In this document: one piece after another, positions 27,482 through 38,335 of the stretch | Numbering within the stretch: the first letter of the stretch is position 1 | How the letters are laid out: each line of letters begins with the position of its first letter | Position numbers and translations under genes: made by a program | Assembly: GCA_937967505.1 (NCBI GenBank) | Contig: CALCJM010000127.1 | Location: forward strand, 1-64,000 | Direction: 5' to 3' | Source of the DNA: an uncultured Pirellulaceae bacterium | Lineage (GTDB): Bacteria > Planctomycetota > Planctomycetia > Pirellulales > Pirellulaceae | Length of the DNA stretch: 64,000 bases | Notes under the pieces: generated by a model | What the model was told of the DNA's origin: nothing | The model's database searches: none | What the model saw: only the letters and a program-made list of their open reading frames with translations

Positions 27482-27937
27482 TAGGACGGGATGCGCTGAA
27501 GATCGGGTTAATGCGGGCTCAGATCCAAGTTTTTACGACGTTTGTAGGGTAATCTACCTTACCAATAAGCCTTGGGAGATTTTTTTGGCCAAAACTTGAC
27601 GGTGGAAAGACGCTTTTCGTTGCGGAAAAATGACAAATTCGCAGAAAAAAAGCAACTGGTTCTGCCTTCAATAGCCAGATACCGCTGGAAGCTGAACAGA
27701 AATTTTATCACCTCGAAACCGCGAAAACACTGTCACAAGATACGTGTCCCTTATCTGCCTCCTTTTATCTGCTGTGTCTCGGAAAACCGGTGAACTCTCC
27801 AGCAAGCGAGTGTACATATCACCACTTTCAACACGAGACCATTTCACTTTACCAAGAAATTTATAGCCCATATTTTTCAAAAACTCAGCTGTTGGCGGAA
27901 AAACCGGTTATGCTGTCACTTCAAGGCAATTTATCGG
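27482..27937. other. Non-coding stretch
   Basis: This AT-rich gap of about 450 bp separates the glycosyltransferase gene from the first of the three bracketed single-gene units. A 68-codon open frame at 27790 has no family signature or ribosome-binding site and I do not accept it. No RNA gene recognised. Confidence 0.5.
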
Positions 27938-27940
27938 GCA

Positions 27941-27975
27941 CGCCGTCGTATATAAACATGTTGCAGGACCTCAGG
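27941..27975 (-). repeat. Inverted arm before the VOC gene (unit 1, left arm)
   Basis: Read outward from the gene, the complement is GAGGTCCTGCAACAT followed by a T/A-rich tail ending ACG. The arm after the same gene reads GAGGTCATGCAACAT, then TATTTTTACG: 14 of the first 15 bases are identical. It ends 13 bases before the start codon. Confidence 0.7.
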
Positions 27976-27988
27976 TCTAACAAAACCC

Positions 27989-28342
27989 ATGACTGACGTT
28001 TCCCTACGGTTGCTCGTCCTTAAGACGCACGACATTTCTGGTATCGTAGCGTTCTACCAATCGCTGGGTTTCACATTCACCGAGGAGCAACATGGCAAGG
28101 GACCGCTACATCATTCCGCACCGCTTGGTGACGGCATTATCGAAATCTATCCGTTGCCTGACGATCAAGCCGTTGATCCCACTACAAGGCTCGGATTCGC
28201 AATCGCCGACCCGGACACAGTCGTAGACGGCGCTGAATCTATCGGTGGCCGCGTCATTAGACCGGGCCGTGAGACGCCTTGGGGCTATATGGCATTGGTT
28301 GCCGATCCCGATGGCCGCACCGTCGAACTGTATCGTGCATGA
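27989..28342 (+). CDS. VOC (glyoxalase/bleomycin-resistance) superfamily protein
   Basis: 117-residue paired beta-alpha-beta-beta-beta fold. Two modules are visible: residues 5-50 (LRLLVLKTHDISGIVAFYQSLGF, HHSAPLGDGIIEIYPL) and 65-117 (LGFAIADPDTVVDGAESIGG, ending ALVADPDGRTVELYRA). Candidate metal ligands are a His in the first module and the terminal Glu of VELY, as usual for the family. The substrate is unknown. It is a single-gene unit bracketed by matching inverted arms, and looks unrelated in function to its neighbours. Confidence 0.9.
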   Translation: MTDVSLRLLVLKTHDISGIVAFYQSLGFTFTEEQHGKGPLHHSAPLGDGIIEIYPLPDDQAVDPTTRLGFAIADPDTVVDGAESIGGRVIRPGRETPWGYMALVADPDGRTVELYRA

Positions 28343-28390
28343 TTGCGCTGTCCTTGCATGTCTTTTGGGATGGATACCTTTCTGGCGCTT

Positions 28391-28418
28391 CAGAGGTCAT
28401 GCAACATTATTTTTACGC
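28391..28418 (+). repeat. Inverted arm after the VOC gene (unit 1, right arm)
   Basis: CAGAGGTCATGCAACATTAT followed by TTTTACGC. It is complementary to the arm at 27941-27975 and starts 49 bases after the stop codon. Confidence 0.7.
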
Positions 28419-28545
28419 AAAGCCACGGCTTCGTCCTTGGAGCATCGTTCGGTTTGCCATGCCGTGGACACCGTCTTTTGGCAACATCGGTTCTTTTTTG
28501 GTAAACTGTTTTGTATTGCGGCGCTTTTTGACTTCGGGGAGAAGC

Positions 28546-28580
28546 GGTGTCGTAAAACTTTTCCTGTGGTGCGCTCCTGA
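28546..28580 (-). repeat. Inverted arm before the 227-aa gene (unit 2, left arm)
   Basis: Read outward, the complement begins AGGAGCGCACCACAGG and continues with an A-rich bulge, then GTTTTACGACACC. It abuts the start codon (2 bases away). It shares the bulge and GACACC end with the left arm of unit 3, and its first part with the right arm of unit 2. In the sense direction TCGTAAAACT could act as a -10 box. Confidence 0.6.
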
Positions 28581-28582
28581 CT

Positions 28583-29266
28583 ATGCCAACTATTGACCGC
28601 AAAGCTCGTGACGTCGTTGCCGCCGAGGTACGACAGTTCCTCAATGGCCGGACAACAGCGTTTGCGTTCGATGCTGCAATCTACAATGTTGAGTCCGACG
28701 ACCCGACAGTTCACGACATCATCTATCGTATGTGGTATCACTACGACGATTGCAAGGACCACACTGTCACACTCTCGAAACCGGAGTGGAACTACTTTCA
28801 GCGGTTGCTGTTAATATTGGATTCTGACCGGCACATTGAATCCAAAACCACCCGCAATTGGTGCTGGTCGCAGCTATGGGCTTTCATTGCGCTGCTCGCC
28901 TTCGCGTGTCTTGCCTATCAACTTGGACTTGGACAGCATTTACTCGCGGCTTCCATTTTGTTTGGCGTTGTGTCTATGTTGATCGCATACTTTCGCCAAC
29001 GCGCACACCAGCCTGACAATTCTTTGGTTGCGTTGACCCCGTTTGCAACTTTCGCCGAACTCCGGGACACGTACCGTCAGGTCGAAGGATTCCGAAAACA
29101 GCGATTTCATCGCGACTTCGTTGCCCCACAAATCCGCTCTCATACCATGAATCAAATGATGATGATCCCTACGTGGATCGCTTGGCTCATGTTGGCCCCA
29201 CTGGTTCTATTTGCCCAATCGCTTCCTGACCGCGACAGCACTACCAGCGTTGTCGCCAATGGCTGA
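28583..29266 (+). CDS. Hypothetical membrane protein of a bracketed single-gene unit
   Basis: 227 residues. A soluble N-terminal part of about 90 residues (one helix-rich segment, HDIIYRMWYHYDDCKDH) is followed by two close membrane helices (about 93-112 and 115-131), a cytoplasmic segment with a LRDTYRQVEGFRKQRFHRDF stretch, and a C-terminal helix (about 196-213). No family recognised. The ATG lies 2 bases after the left arm and the TGA stop is inside the right arm, so the gene almost fills its unit. Confidence 0.7.
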   Translation: MPTIDRKARDVVAAEVRQFLNGRTTAFAFDAAIYNVESDDPTVHDIIYRMWYHYDDCKDHTVTLSKPEWNYFQRLLLILDSDRHIESKTTRNWCWSQLWAFIALLAFACLAYQLGLGQHLLAASILFGVVSMLIAYFRQRAHQPDNSLVALTPFATFAELRDTYRQVEGFRKQRFHRDFVAPQIRSHTMNQMMMIPTWIAWLMLAPLVLFAQSLPDRDSTTSVVANG

Positions 29267-29325
29267 GGGGCGGACAACATAGTTTTTACGCGTCGGCACA
29301 CCTTCGTTTGTTGTTCGAGCCTCGC
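29264..29325 (+). repeat. Inverted arm after the 227-aa gene (unit 2, right arm), attC-like
   Basis: Begins TGAGGGGCGGACAACATAG, then TTTTTACG. The first bases are the gene's stop codon. It can also fold on itself: GGCGGACAACA pairs with TGTTGTTCGAGCC at 29313-29325, giving a roughly 58-base site with AAC and GTT boxes, like a short integron attC. Confidence 0.6.
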
Positions 29326-29611
29326 TGAACAGGTCAACGATCTTCTGTCGCAACTCAAGGCCATTGAGCCACATTTCGCGTCACTCCCTTCGGGGGAGGG
29401 CTCACCCCATGAACAATTCTTCTAGGGTTTATTACCGGCGGTAACTCAGGCCGCAAACAGTGGTCGCGTACTGTGGGTTCAAACCGATACGTAGGCCTAG
29501 TGTTCGCCCACATGCTCTTTACCCAAAAGCCCTCCGGGTACACCCGCGATTTTTACTCAATCCGCGTTCACTTGGTACAATCCTTGTTGATTCGACATCT
29601 TTCGGTTCCGC
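29326..29611. other. Non-coding spacer between units 2 and 3
   Basis: About 290 bp with no acceptable coding frame. It contains a short hairpin, CTCCCTTCGGGGGAG, near 29391-29405, a possible terminator without a T-run. It could be an emptied or decayed unit. Confidence 0.45.
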
Positions 29612-29655
29612 GTAGGACGGGTGTCATAAAAATCTTCCGTTGTTACACGCCCCCT
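29612..29655 (-). repeat. Inverted arm before the NPYESP-type gene (unit 3, left arm)
   Basis: Read outward, the complement is GGGGGCGTGTAACAACGG, a bulge, then TTTTTATGACACC. The arm after the same gene reads GGGGCGTGTAACATGG, then TTTTTAT: GGGGCGTGTAACA is identical over 13 bases. It ends about 5 bases before the ATG. Confidence 0.75.
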
Positions 29656-29660
29656 GGCTG

Positions 29661-30254
29661 ATGCTAAATCCATACGAATCTCCGAGAAAGCCAACCCAAG
29701 CCGCTCAGGCGGTGCCATATTGGTACGTACTGTTCTCCCAACTTTACTGGCCGATGTGGTGGATGGGTACTGCGCTGATCGCCGGTAACTGGTTCAATCT
29801 CGTGTCACCGACGGTTGGCTGGGTGGGCTTCGGTCTCGCTGGTGCTGCTGCTCTCGGTTCATACGTTCTTCCATCGCTAGCCGGCATTCGACCCGAGGAT
29901 TATGTCGTACTGGACTCTCGACTGCTCAACTCCAAAGGTGAGGCGTACTCTGACGCATTGAAGCGTTTTTCCAATGGTGCGACACTCATGTATGACGGTG
30001 TCGCCTTCGGATTTCGCCCCGACAACGAGATTGCTTGCGGCGTCGTTGCCCAATCACCCAGCGTTAACCAATCCGAGGCTCGTGATATCGCCGATCATGC
30101 CCAATCTGTCTTCGATGCGCTAACTGTCTCGTCGCCAGAATTTGCTTCGGCTGTCGCTGGAAAGACTTTTCGCATTTCCATCATGTCCGACATGAACGCC
30201 AATGCCACCGAACTCTACCGTATCGTTGATGGCAACATTGAATCGCGGGGCTGA
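29661..30254 (+). CDS. NPYESP-type small membrane protein of a bracketed single-gene unit
   Basis: 197 residues starting MLNPYESPRKP, an N-terminal motif very common in planctomycete hypothetical proteins. Two membrane helices follow (about residues 22-42 and 49-70), then a soluble C-terminal domain (RPEDYVVLDSRLLNSKGEAY, ending YRIVDGNIESRG). Function unknown. The start is ATG 29661; a TTG at 29640 would lie inside the inverted arm. The stop codon TGA is directly followed by the right arm. Confidence 0.78.
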   Translation: MLNPYESPRKPTQAAQAVPYWYVLFSQLYWPMWWMGTALIAGNWFNLVSPTVGWVGFGLAGAAALGSYVLPSLAGIRPEDYVVLDSRLLNSKGEAYSDALKRFSNGATLMYDGVAFGFRPDNEIACGVVAQSPSVNQSEARDIADHAQSVFDALTVSSPEFASAVAGKTFRISIMSDMNANATELYRIVDGNIESRG

Positions 30255-30308
30255 CGGGGCGTGTAACATGGTTTTTATCGGGTAAATTGTGATCAAGAAG
30301 TTACACGG
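30255..30308 (+). repeat. Inverted arm after the NPYESP-type gene (unit 3, right arm), attC-like
   Basis: CGGGGCGTGTAACATGG starts at the stop codon. Thirty-odd bases on, GTTACACGGCGC is its complement, so this single site folds into a 50-odd-base hairpin with complementary GTGTAAC and GTTACAC boxes. That is the layout of an integron attC R''/R' pair, although the boxes do not fit the RYYYAAC/GTTRRRY consensus exactly. Confidence 0.65.
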
Positions 30309-30462
30309 CGCTGGCAGCTTACTCATCGCGCTTCCTGCTTCGTTCCTTCCTGACGCCAGGCACGCGTCCGCTAGCCGACGATGTAAATTAAAACCAAAAA
30401 TGGTTCGCGCGGGGTTAGATCCCTACGTAAACCATACGTGATTTCGCGGAGCGAAATACGAC
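30309..30462. other. Non-coding stretch with a small hairpin
   Basis: No gene. GATTTCGC-GGA-GCGAAATA near 30441-30459 is a perfect short hairpin. A GTTAGAT box at 30414-30420 matches the attC core consensus but could be chance. Confidence 0.4.
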
Positions 30463-30570
30463 TTAGGCGACTGGCAGTTAGGCGTTTACCACCCGTTGCC
30501 GACGCTGTCAGCGTCGGAGCGAAGCTGGCAGCGTCGCCAACGGTAAATTCACAACTGCCAATCACCTAAA
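30463..30570. repeat. Dispersed palindromic element, copy 4
   Basis: The ends TTAGGCGACTGGCAGTTAGG and ACAACTGCCAATCACCTAAA are inverted repeats. The middle (GTTTACCACCCGTTGCCGAC, then GCTGGCAGCGTCGCCAACGG) is almost the same as copy 3 at 21.1 kb. It lies just downstream of the yihY-type gene's 3' end. Confidence 0.88.
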
Positions 30571-36548: not shown

Positions 36549-37813
36549 ATCTGCACGTTATTGGTTGCAGCCATCATCGCTCAAGCGTTTCGGTGCGAGA
36601 GAAACTTTCCTTTACGCCTGACCAAGTAAAGACCTTTCTTGATAAATTTCACTCGACGTTTCCCGGATCTGAAGCGGTGTTGATATCAACCTGCAATCGG
36701 ACCGAATTGTACGCGGCCGGTAAATCGACAGAGGGTGTGCCGACTTCCCAGCAGATGATTGATTTTCTGGCGACCGAACGTGGCCTAGAAAGTGGCGATA
36801 TTTCGTCGAACCTGTTTACCCACCAGGACCGCGCGGCGATCGGTCATCTGTTTCGCGTGGCGGCGTCCCTGGACAGCATGGTAATTGGTGAAGCGCAGAT
36901 CCTTTCGCAGGTCAAACAAGCCTATCAATTGGCAGTGGACACGGGTCACAAGATCCCGTTGACGCATCAGGTGTTTCAAACCGCCATGAAGGTGGCCAAA
37001 CGCGTGGCCACCGAGACCGATATTCACTCGACGCGCGTCAGCGTCCCCAGCGTGGCGGTCAACGTGCTGACGGGGGAAATTTTTGAACGCCTGGATAACA
37101 AGCGCATTTTGATTCTGGGCGCCGGCGAAATGGCCGAAGAGACGCTGACCTATCTGGTGGCCAAAGACGGGAAAGACATCGTCGTGATCAATCGCACCCG
37201 CAGCAAAGCCGAATCGTTGGCGGCACAGTTCAACGGACAAGTCGCGGATTGGGAAGAACTTGGGCAACAGGTTGCCGCAGCCGATCTGATTGTCAGCACA
37301 ACCAGTGCCAAGGAACCTGTGGTGACCGACCAGCTGTTCCGGGAATTCTCCGGCAGCAGTCGTCAGCAACCGTTACTGGTACTGGATCTGGCGATTCCAC
37401 GCGATTTCGATTCGAAGATTGGCGACCTGCCAAACATTTTTCTATACACGCTGGACGACTTGCAGAAGCAATGCGAAAAGAATCGCAAATCACGCCAAAG
37501 CCAGTGGCCCAAAGCAGAAAAAATCATTCAGCAAGAAACAGCCAGCTTCTTTCAGGATGTGCACCGCCGCAATAGCGGCCAGACAATCGCTCAATTGAAG
37601 CAACAGGCCAACGGCGTCAAGGATGCCGAACTGGAACGCTTATTGAACCGCCTGAATCTTTCCCCCGAAGAAGAGGCGGAGATCGAGCAGTCGTTTCACC
37701 GGTTGGTGAACAAAATTCTTCATCCGCCACTGAAGTCGATTAACGCCGACAAAAATGATGGTTCTGGTGGTTTGTTGGAGGCGATGAAACGGCTGTTCCA
37801 GTTGGGCGATTGA
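36545..37813 (+). CDS. hemA: Glutamyl-tRNA reductase
   Basis: First enzyme of C5 tetrapyrrole synthesis: reduces glutamyl-tRNA to glutamate-1-semialdehyde with NADPH. 422 residues, normal length. The substrate domain begins MNLHVIGCSHHRSSVSVRE and carries the catalytic Cys in LISTCNRTELYA. The conserved block GHLFRVAASLDSMVIGEAQI follows, then the NADPH-binding GAGEMAEETL and VINRTRSKAE. The C-terminal helical dimerisation domain ends with LLEAMKRLFQLGD. A GGAGG ribosome-binding site precedes the ATG and the gene is coupled to the HemX-like gene by overlap. Confidence 0.97.
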   Translation: MNLHVIGCSHHRSSVSVREKLSFTPDQVKTFLDKFHSTFPGSEAVLISTCNRTELYAAGKSTEGVPTSQQMIDFLATERGLESGDISSNLFTHQDRAAIGHLFRVAASLDSMVIGEAQILSQVKQAYQLAVDTGHKIPLTHQVFQTAMKVAKRVATETDIHSTRVSVPSVAVNVLTGEIFERLDNKRILILGAGEMAEETLTYLVAKDGKDIVVINRTRSKAESLAAQFNGQVADWEELGQQVAAADLIVSTTSAKEPVVTDQLFREFSGSSRQQPLLVLDLAIPRDFDSKIGDLPNIFLYTLDDLQKQCEKNRKSRQSQWPKAEKIIQQETASFFQDVHRRNSGQTIAQLKQQANGVKDAELERLLNRLNLSPEEEAEIEQSFHRLVNKILHPPLKSINADKNDGSGGLLEAMKRLFQLGD

Positions 37814-37854
37814 AGTGTGTGTGGAAGAGAAAGTGAGCCCGGCTTGTAGCCTTC

Positions 37855-38335
37855 AACGTGGCTATGCTCGCCAGAGCGTGGATGACTTACGGTACATCTT
37901 CCTTTAGTGAAGATGCTGAAGCTGTTGATAACACTCCACCGTCTGGCGACGGTAGCTACATTCACAGCTGAAATCAACGTGGCTACGCTCGCCAGAGCGT
38001 GGATGACTTACGGTACATCTTCCTTTAATGAAGATGCTGAAGCTGTTGATAACACTCCACCGTCTGGCGACGGTAGCTACGTTCACAGCTGAAATCAACG
38101 TGGCTACGCTCGCCAGAGCGTGGATGACCCACGGTACATCTTTCCTTTAATGAAGATGCTGAAGCCGTTGATAACGCTCCACCGTCTGGCGACGGTAGCT
38201 ACGTTCATAGCTGAAATCAACGTGGCTACGCCCGCCAGAGCGTGGATGACTCACGGTACATCTTCCTTTAATGAAGATGCTGAAGCTGTTGATAACACTC
38301 CACCGTCTGACGACGGTAGCCACGTTTTCTGCGTG
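37855..38335. repeat. REP/BIME-like tandem array, four copies of about 121 bp
   Basis: Four head-to-tail units start at about 37855, 37976, 38097 and 38219. Each holds a hairpin GCTACGCTC-GCCA-GAGCGTGG, an ATCTTC...GAAGAT hairpin, and a second hairpin in reverse orientation (its complement is GCTACCGTC-GCCA-GACGGTGG). So each unit has two related hairpins facing opposite ways, as in enterobacterial BIMEs. Copies differ by a few bases and one indel. Open frames across it are short, repeated and not credible genes. It fills the gap between hemA and the acidic-protein gene. Confidence 0.9.

Follow-up and report, generated by a model that had tools for sequence, protein, structure and literature searches.

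The integron core site has the consensus GTTRRRY, and the bases beyond the crossover travel with the 5' end of a cassette, which makes both ends of a given cassette match each other. The described systems closest to the locus reported here include: (i) classical integrons, one of which is mentioned in Rhodopirellula baltica (PMC3108266), with an integrase, IntI, that is recognised by an additional domain in the portions of the cited papers that treat it (PMC9668308, PMC2426708, PMC8352920), (ii) CALINs, which are attC clusters with no integrase, as described in part of PMC8618304, and (iii) the tyrosine recombinases XerA, XerC and XerD. The relevant portion of a tyrosine recombinase survey gives the insertion as incompletely conserved in an integron-like subgroup, yet essential to integron function; therefore, relatives without the insertion have already been seen, and the same portion of the survey does not mention cassette arrays beside them (PMC8138268). 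Searches for integrons rely on the IntI domain and, thus, would overlook arrays run by another recombinase or class them as orphan clusters. A full-text search of the literature (preprints absent, few subscription journals) returned no description of such arrays.

A probable small cassette array in the Pirellulaceae window

The window analysed here is a 64,000-nucleotide stretch of an uncultured Pirellulaceae bacterium (assembly GCA_937967505.1, contig CALCJM010000127.1, positions 1 to 64,000). It holds a small, partly decayed satellite array that consists of an attI-like site, three intact genes and four sites or site remnants, with no integrase. The features are:

27930..27962, + strand: attI-like site, with the crossover GTT at 27960-27962; matches the conserved integrase-to-first-cassette site of relatives
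27960..28565, + strand: cassette 1, from GTT to the next, mutated, GTG; ends match at 13/16
27989..28342, + strand: VOC/glyoxalase-fold protein, 117 aa (PF00903, E 3.7e-8)
28394..28576, + strand: attC-like site 1, of the long (about 200-base) type (blastn E 3e-37, 69 matches)
28566..29323, + strand: cassette 2, to the remnant of its site; ends match at 11/16
28583..29266, + strand: membrane protein, 227 aa, family unassigned (no Pfam family at E 0.1)
29267..29323, + strand: site 2a, first part of an attC-like site (blastn against array sites)
29324..29499, no strand: stretch without recognisable site or intact gene between two site matches, perhaps a decayed cassette
29500..29652, + strand: site 2b, a degenerate, nearly whole attC-like site, with the left half CATAAAAATCTTCCGTT at 29625-29641
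29639..30279, + strand: cassette 3, from GTT to the remnant of its site; ends match at 13/16; second GTT at 29642
29661..30254, + strand: 197-aa protein MLNPYESP..., family unassigned (no Pfam family at E 0.1)
30255..30310, + strand: site 3, first half followed by a short hairpin loop and GTTACACGG (22-base match, E 1e-6; z -4.52)

A sequence-only reading of the window had reported inverted arms around the three genes, and the arms are present where it put them when the letters are re-read. Its claim that the arms of the same gene match best, with unit 2 the weakest, also stands: the first 16 bases of the left end, compared by eye to the reverse complement of the right end, agree at 13/16 in unit 1, 11/16 in unit 2 and 13/16 in unit 3 (the first 12 consecutively), and 185 cassettes of related arrays behave alike. 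The left arm of unit 1, taken in that reading as a half-site of the gene, is instead the attI-like site. The right ends of units 1 to 3 have the R'' half AACATxxTTTTTA (starting at 28403, 29276 and 30265), as in related arrays (array consensus AACATGGTTTTTACG), and the left ends of units 2 and 3 are the partner half (array consensus CGTAAAAACCTTCCGTT). The right R' half of site 1, which precedes unit 2, has GTG where GTT is expected.

When the whole 64 kb window was compared by blastn to 258 sites taken from related arrays, the merged matches at E 1e-3 were confined to 28394-28576, 29267-29323 and 29500-29652, the first site reaching a best E value of 3e-37 and the second region one of 6e-25. 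Site 3 has kept its first half and lost its second, and its match when searched alone spans 22 bases only (E 1e-6). As linear DNA, the first and second intergenic regions are no more stable than shuffles (z 0.68 and -0.10), and the third alone folds better (z -4.52); the attI-like site does not fold better than shuffles. Just past the array, at 30463-30569, are nested inverted repeats, in which 24-base arms (88% complementary, 3 bases apart) lie inside 28-base arms. At 37720-38098, two overlapping antisense ORFs are identical over their first 20 or more residues; thus, the DNA there is a tandem repeat.

The arms also occur elsewhere in the same genome, as the sequence-only reading had proposed to check: a second cassette place on contig C19 (8263-9066) has an intact site of about 218 bases. 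An ORF beyond it (L017:1506-2309) is Doc/Fic toxin-like by eye. Relatives of the unit 2 gene are found in 10 other genomes among 149, at 12 loci, all of which are without a paired site within about 1.5 kb of flank. In 20 same-genus stretches with a GT2 homologue (1.4 to 7.8 kb, several short), the three cassette genes are absent (20/20) and neither a BrkB gene nor a paired site lies beside GT2; isolated half-site matches occur in 5/20.

Arrays and recombinases among relatives

The search for the arms in related genomes finds, in the analyst's reading, high one-sided half-site counts in about 16 of the 149 family genomes (e.g., G261 with 66, G305 with 33, G303 with 29, G205 with 23 and G254 with 21), where a high count means at least five half-site matches on one strand, above a reversed-pattern control, and G215 is excluded as scattered. 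The related arrays are co-directional with up to 70 sites, as in G261, where 70 paired sites extend over some 54 kb, and the sites share a long sequence (GGTTTTTACG...CGTAAAAACC). Within the genus, 12/28 genomes yield one or more matches when up to one mismatch is allowed, and 40 of the 47 pattern matches of G453 are right halves in a single array. The same-genus genomes include a parent form (an integrase with about 40 sites) and satellites like that of the window.

The array heads carry a clade of tyrosine recombinases that retain the catalytic residues and have a C-terminal extension. The tyrosine recombinase that the sequence-only reading had proposed to look for is present at the array heads of relatives; the window contig has no recombinase match. 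The additional domain of IntI is absent: 11 array recombinases, when aligned with IntI, have a gap at this position, and the spacing from GKG to HxxR is 66-73 residues (one 86) compared to mostly 107 in IntI. In trees, the array recombinases (support 100/99) and IntI (100/100) form separate clades, and the AU p is 0.248 on the question of whether the two are sister groups. Of the NCBIfam models, the XerA-like and IntI models are nearest to the four array recombinases scored, which are under every cut-off: NF040815 (XerA-like) is the best model with 187-215 bits (cut-off 220), TIGR02249 gives 178-200 bits (cut-off 265; 383 for an IntI of G261) and the XerC and XerD models give 136-182 bits (cut-offs 335 and 330).

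Recombinase matches are found in 17/396 genomes of the order sample and 1/392 of the phylum sample. One of the 17 (G035) was considered as a clade member and rejected, as its tree position is outside the clade, and is not counted. A site adjoins the clade gene in 12 of the 13 family genomes with a clade match, G246 being at a contig edge, and in four further genomes (G254, G453, G464 and G771) outside the order-sample search. The recombinase gene is co-oriented with the array at most heads and points away from it in G264, G284, G305 and G464. In three genomes from outside the family that carry the clade (G039, G080 and G433), the short flanks contain no site by pattern. A plasmid search returned two records that are at most 38% identical, and relatives among the matches listed from genome and viral contig collections are mostly 28-38% identical, with one short stretch at 43%. 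No clade integrase was found in the assembly of the window (88.9% complete). An IntI search of the same genome gave 11 loose matches, with none above the cut-off and none on the window contig; the best match in this genome, located on C104, is a different recombinase that shares 36% identity with the clade across 232 residues.

attI-like sites and satellite arrays

The heads of relatives have a site with GTCG about 15 bases ahead of GTT (13/13 heads, 12 genomes), located between the recombinase and the first cassette. Searched at up to three mismatches in 148 family genomes, the attI pattern, which was built in part from G308 sequences, occurs at three places: the window and two in G308. The window match is the sole one in the window and in its genome. 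One of the G308 sites has no visible cassettes, as the contig ends 116 bases later; the satellite attI at L120:600-2099 of G308 directly follows a gene that, by eye, looks like recA. Same-genus attI-like sites without an adjoining recombinase are in G308 (two), G453 (two), G462 and G465, and an attI-like site was not found at 6/12 further array starts.

The window array is consistent with this satellite form. Satellites may be filled in trans or may have lost their recombinase. Recombinase remnants are present at the arrays of G205, and a tblastn search upstream of the window attI gave no convincing integrase remnant (best E 0.057). A promoter-like TTGCAT-N16-18-TAAAAT pair precedes attI at 10/17 heads, each pair being one that at most 2.5% of shuffles equal, although the motif was first read from these same heads; no such pair is ahead of the window attI.

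IntI in the same genomes

The nearest alternative, an improbable one, is that the window is an ordinary CALIN of a classical system with IntI acting in trans. The GTT crossover and cassette layout are identical in this case, and IntI is above the cut-off in 13 of the 22 genomes chosen for arrays or related matches. However, IntI is about equally common in the family at large (19/35, one of the 19 below cut-off), and none of these 19 genomes has an array, with at most 4 pattern matches on one strand, which in G176 are scattered over four contigs. Clear arrays are found without IntI above the cut-off in G205 (one contig-edge fragment), G221, G278, G284 and G308, six IntI stretches have zero paired sites (single half matches in some), and the arrays begin at the non-IntI recombinase. 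In the closed genome G303 (C1), IntI is present in six copies above the cut-off, some with equal scores.

Cassette behaviour in related arrays

The own ends of 185 cassettes in related arrays match at 9/9 bases in 32% and at seven or more in 72%. By contrast, the two halves of one site (200 sites) match at 9/9 in 0.5% and at seven or more in 10%, no better than shuffled half pairs (0.4% and 9%). Within a site, L'' and L' covary, with 12 matched variant pairs compared to a mean of 0.66 and a maximum of 4 in 2000 shuffles. Repeated cassettes of G261 are alike on the right only as far as 3-4 bases into GTT; their identity on the left extends 10-23 bases upstream of GTT, all inside the conserved site. 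Nine within-genome cassette pairs have 100% identical bodies, including one pair from two arrays of G234 that are about 0.5 Mb apart, and 35 pairs are common to different genomes, the best at 93% across genera.

Most cassettes are a single gene. In 222 cassettes (6 masked ones excluded), the longest ORF has a median length of 124 aa and a median coverage of 0.87, and is oriented with the array in 177 and opposite in 45; the 177 sense ORFs have a median start 19 bases past GTT and a median stop 14 bases ahead of AAC. A Pfam search of 100 cassette proteins found 26 families, none in more than three proteins, including ParE (2), Unstab_antitox (1) and Imm35 (1), and PADLOC matched 0/100. GTT is found at no fewer than 229 of 233 left ends and the full GTTRRRY at 50 of them. 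When circularised, 40 sites sampled from 159 have a predicted folding z of about -4 on both strands, and the R-stem positions of the 159 show many compensated types because the two ends of a cassette match.

Paired mRNA ends, terminators or REP-like repeats flanking single genes, the first of which the sequence-only reading had held in reserve, are very unlikely in view of these results. In their favour are the inverted-repeat form of the arms, their position at gene ends and the GC-rich hairpins of some sites; however, a terminator would neither match the opposite end of its own gene past the half of a neighbour nor travel with the gene as an exact unit, and a search of Rfam gave no family at E 5. 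Less credible still is a mobile element of another, non-integron kind that is bounded by terminal inverted repeats, for example a small one-gene transposon, which would account for inverted ends and repeated copies but not for strict head-to-tail co-directional arrays with a common GTT junction and attI at the head, and target duplication is not needed.

Proposed system

With these alternatives weighed, the region is very probably a small satellite array of an integron-like system run by a non-IntI tyrosine recombinase. At the level of sequence, the sites, matching ends, junction, shared and repeated cassettes, attI and recombinase at the heads are established. In the proposed mechanism, a tyrosine recombinase outside the IntI family would join circular single-gene cassettes to attI, with exchange at GTT, and could also shift cassettes between attC-like sites. 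The clade recombinase is the likely agent of this joining, and its attC substrate is presumably one strand in folded form. After insertion, the 5' end of the cassette would retain the bases after the crossover and the 3' end the remainder of the site, which would account for the matching cassette ends. The recombinase gene is found side by side with attI and the array in relatives. The window retains attI and three cassettes, whose sites are partly decayed, and has no integrase; its recombinase would be of the kind encoded elsewhere in relatives and was not found in this assembly. The window array was probably filled in trans or its integrase was lost.

On a broader scale, the arrays probably represent a second integron lineage, in which a recombinase without the IntI additional domain builds and shuffles large arrays through its own attI and attC, in genomes that also have classical IntI, and supplies cassettes to satellite attI sites at other chromosomal positions. 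In that case, integron function in general would not depend on the additional domain. With a cassette platform based on a different recombinase, one could ask directly which parts of IntI are needed for capture, and such arrays would form a large, little-known pool of mobile genes.

Comparison with known systems

Like integrons, the system has a cassette array, attI, a GTT junction, mostly single-gene cassettes that each end in a site, an integrase beside the first cassette, a 3' recombination site with a folded form (here predicted) and 5' bases that travel with the cassette. In relatives, attI is beside the integrase at 13/13 heads; the window has the site without the integrase. Unlike integrons, the sites share long sequence, and the array recombinase lacks the additional domain, is under the TIGR02249 cut-off and forms a clade of its own outside IntI; the core site may also differ, with only 50/233 left ends that fit GTTRRRY. 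A CALIN is defined by two or more attC sites that the published attC model recognises, with no integrase. The window array resembles a CALIN in the absence of an integrase but differs in retaining an attI-like site and in having sites that belong to a non-IntI system. Similarly to XerA, XerC and XerD, the array recombinase has a simple core, and NF040815 is its best NCBIfam model; by contrast, four array proteins are under all three cut-offs, and the enzyme has a long C-terminal extension and is found at cassette arrays. The sequence-only reading had suggested a cassette system, possibly a different one, and the array sites and the non-IntI recombinase support this. Its reason, that half-sites are on both sides of each gene, was mistaken, as integrons normally show this layout too; what sets the system apart from known integrons is the recombinase at the array heads.
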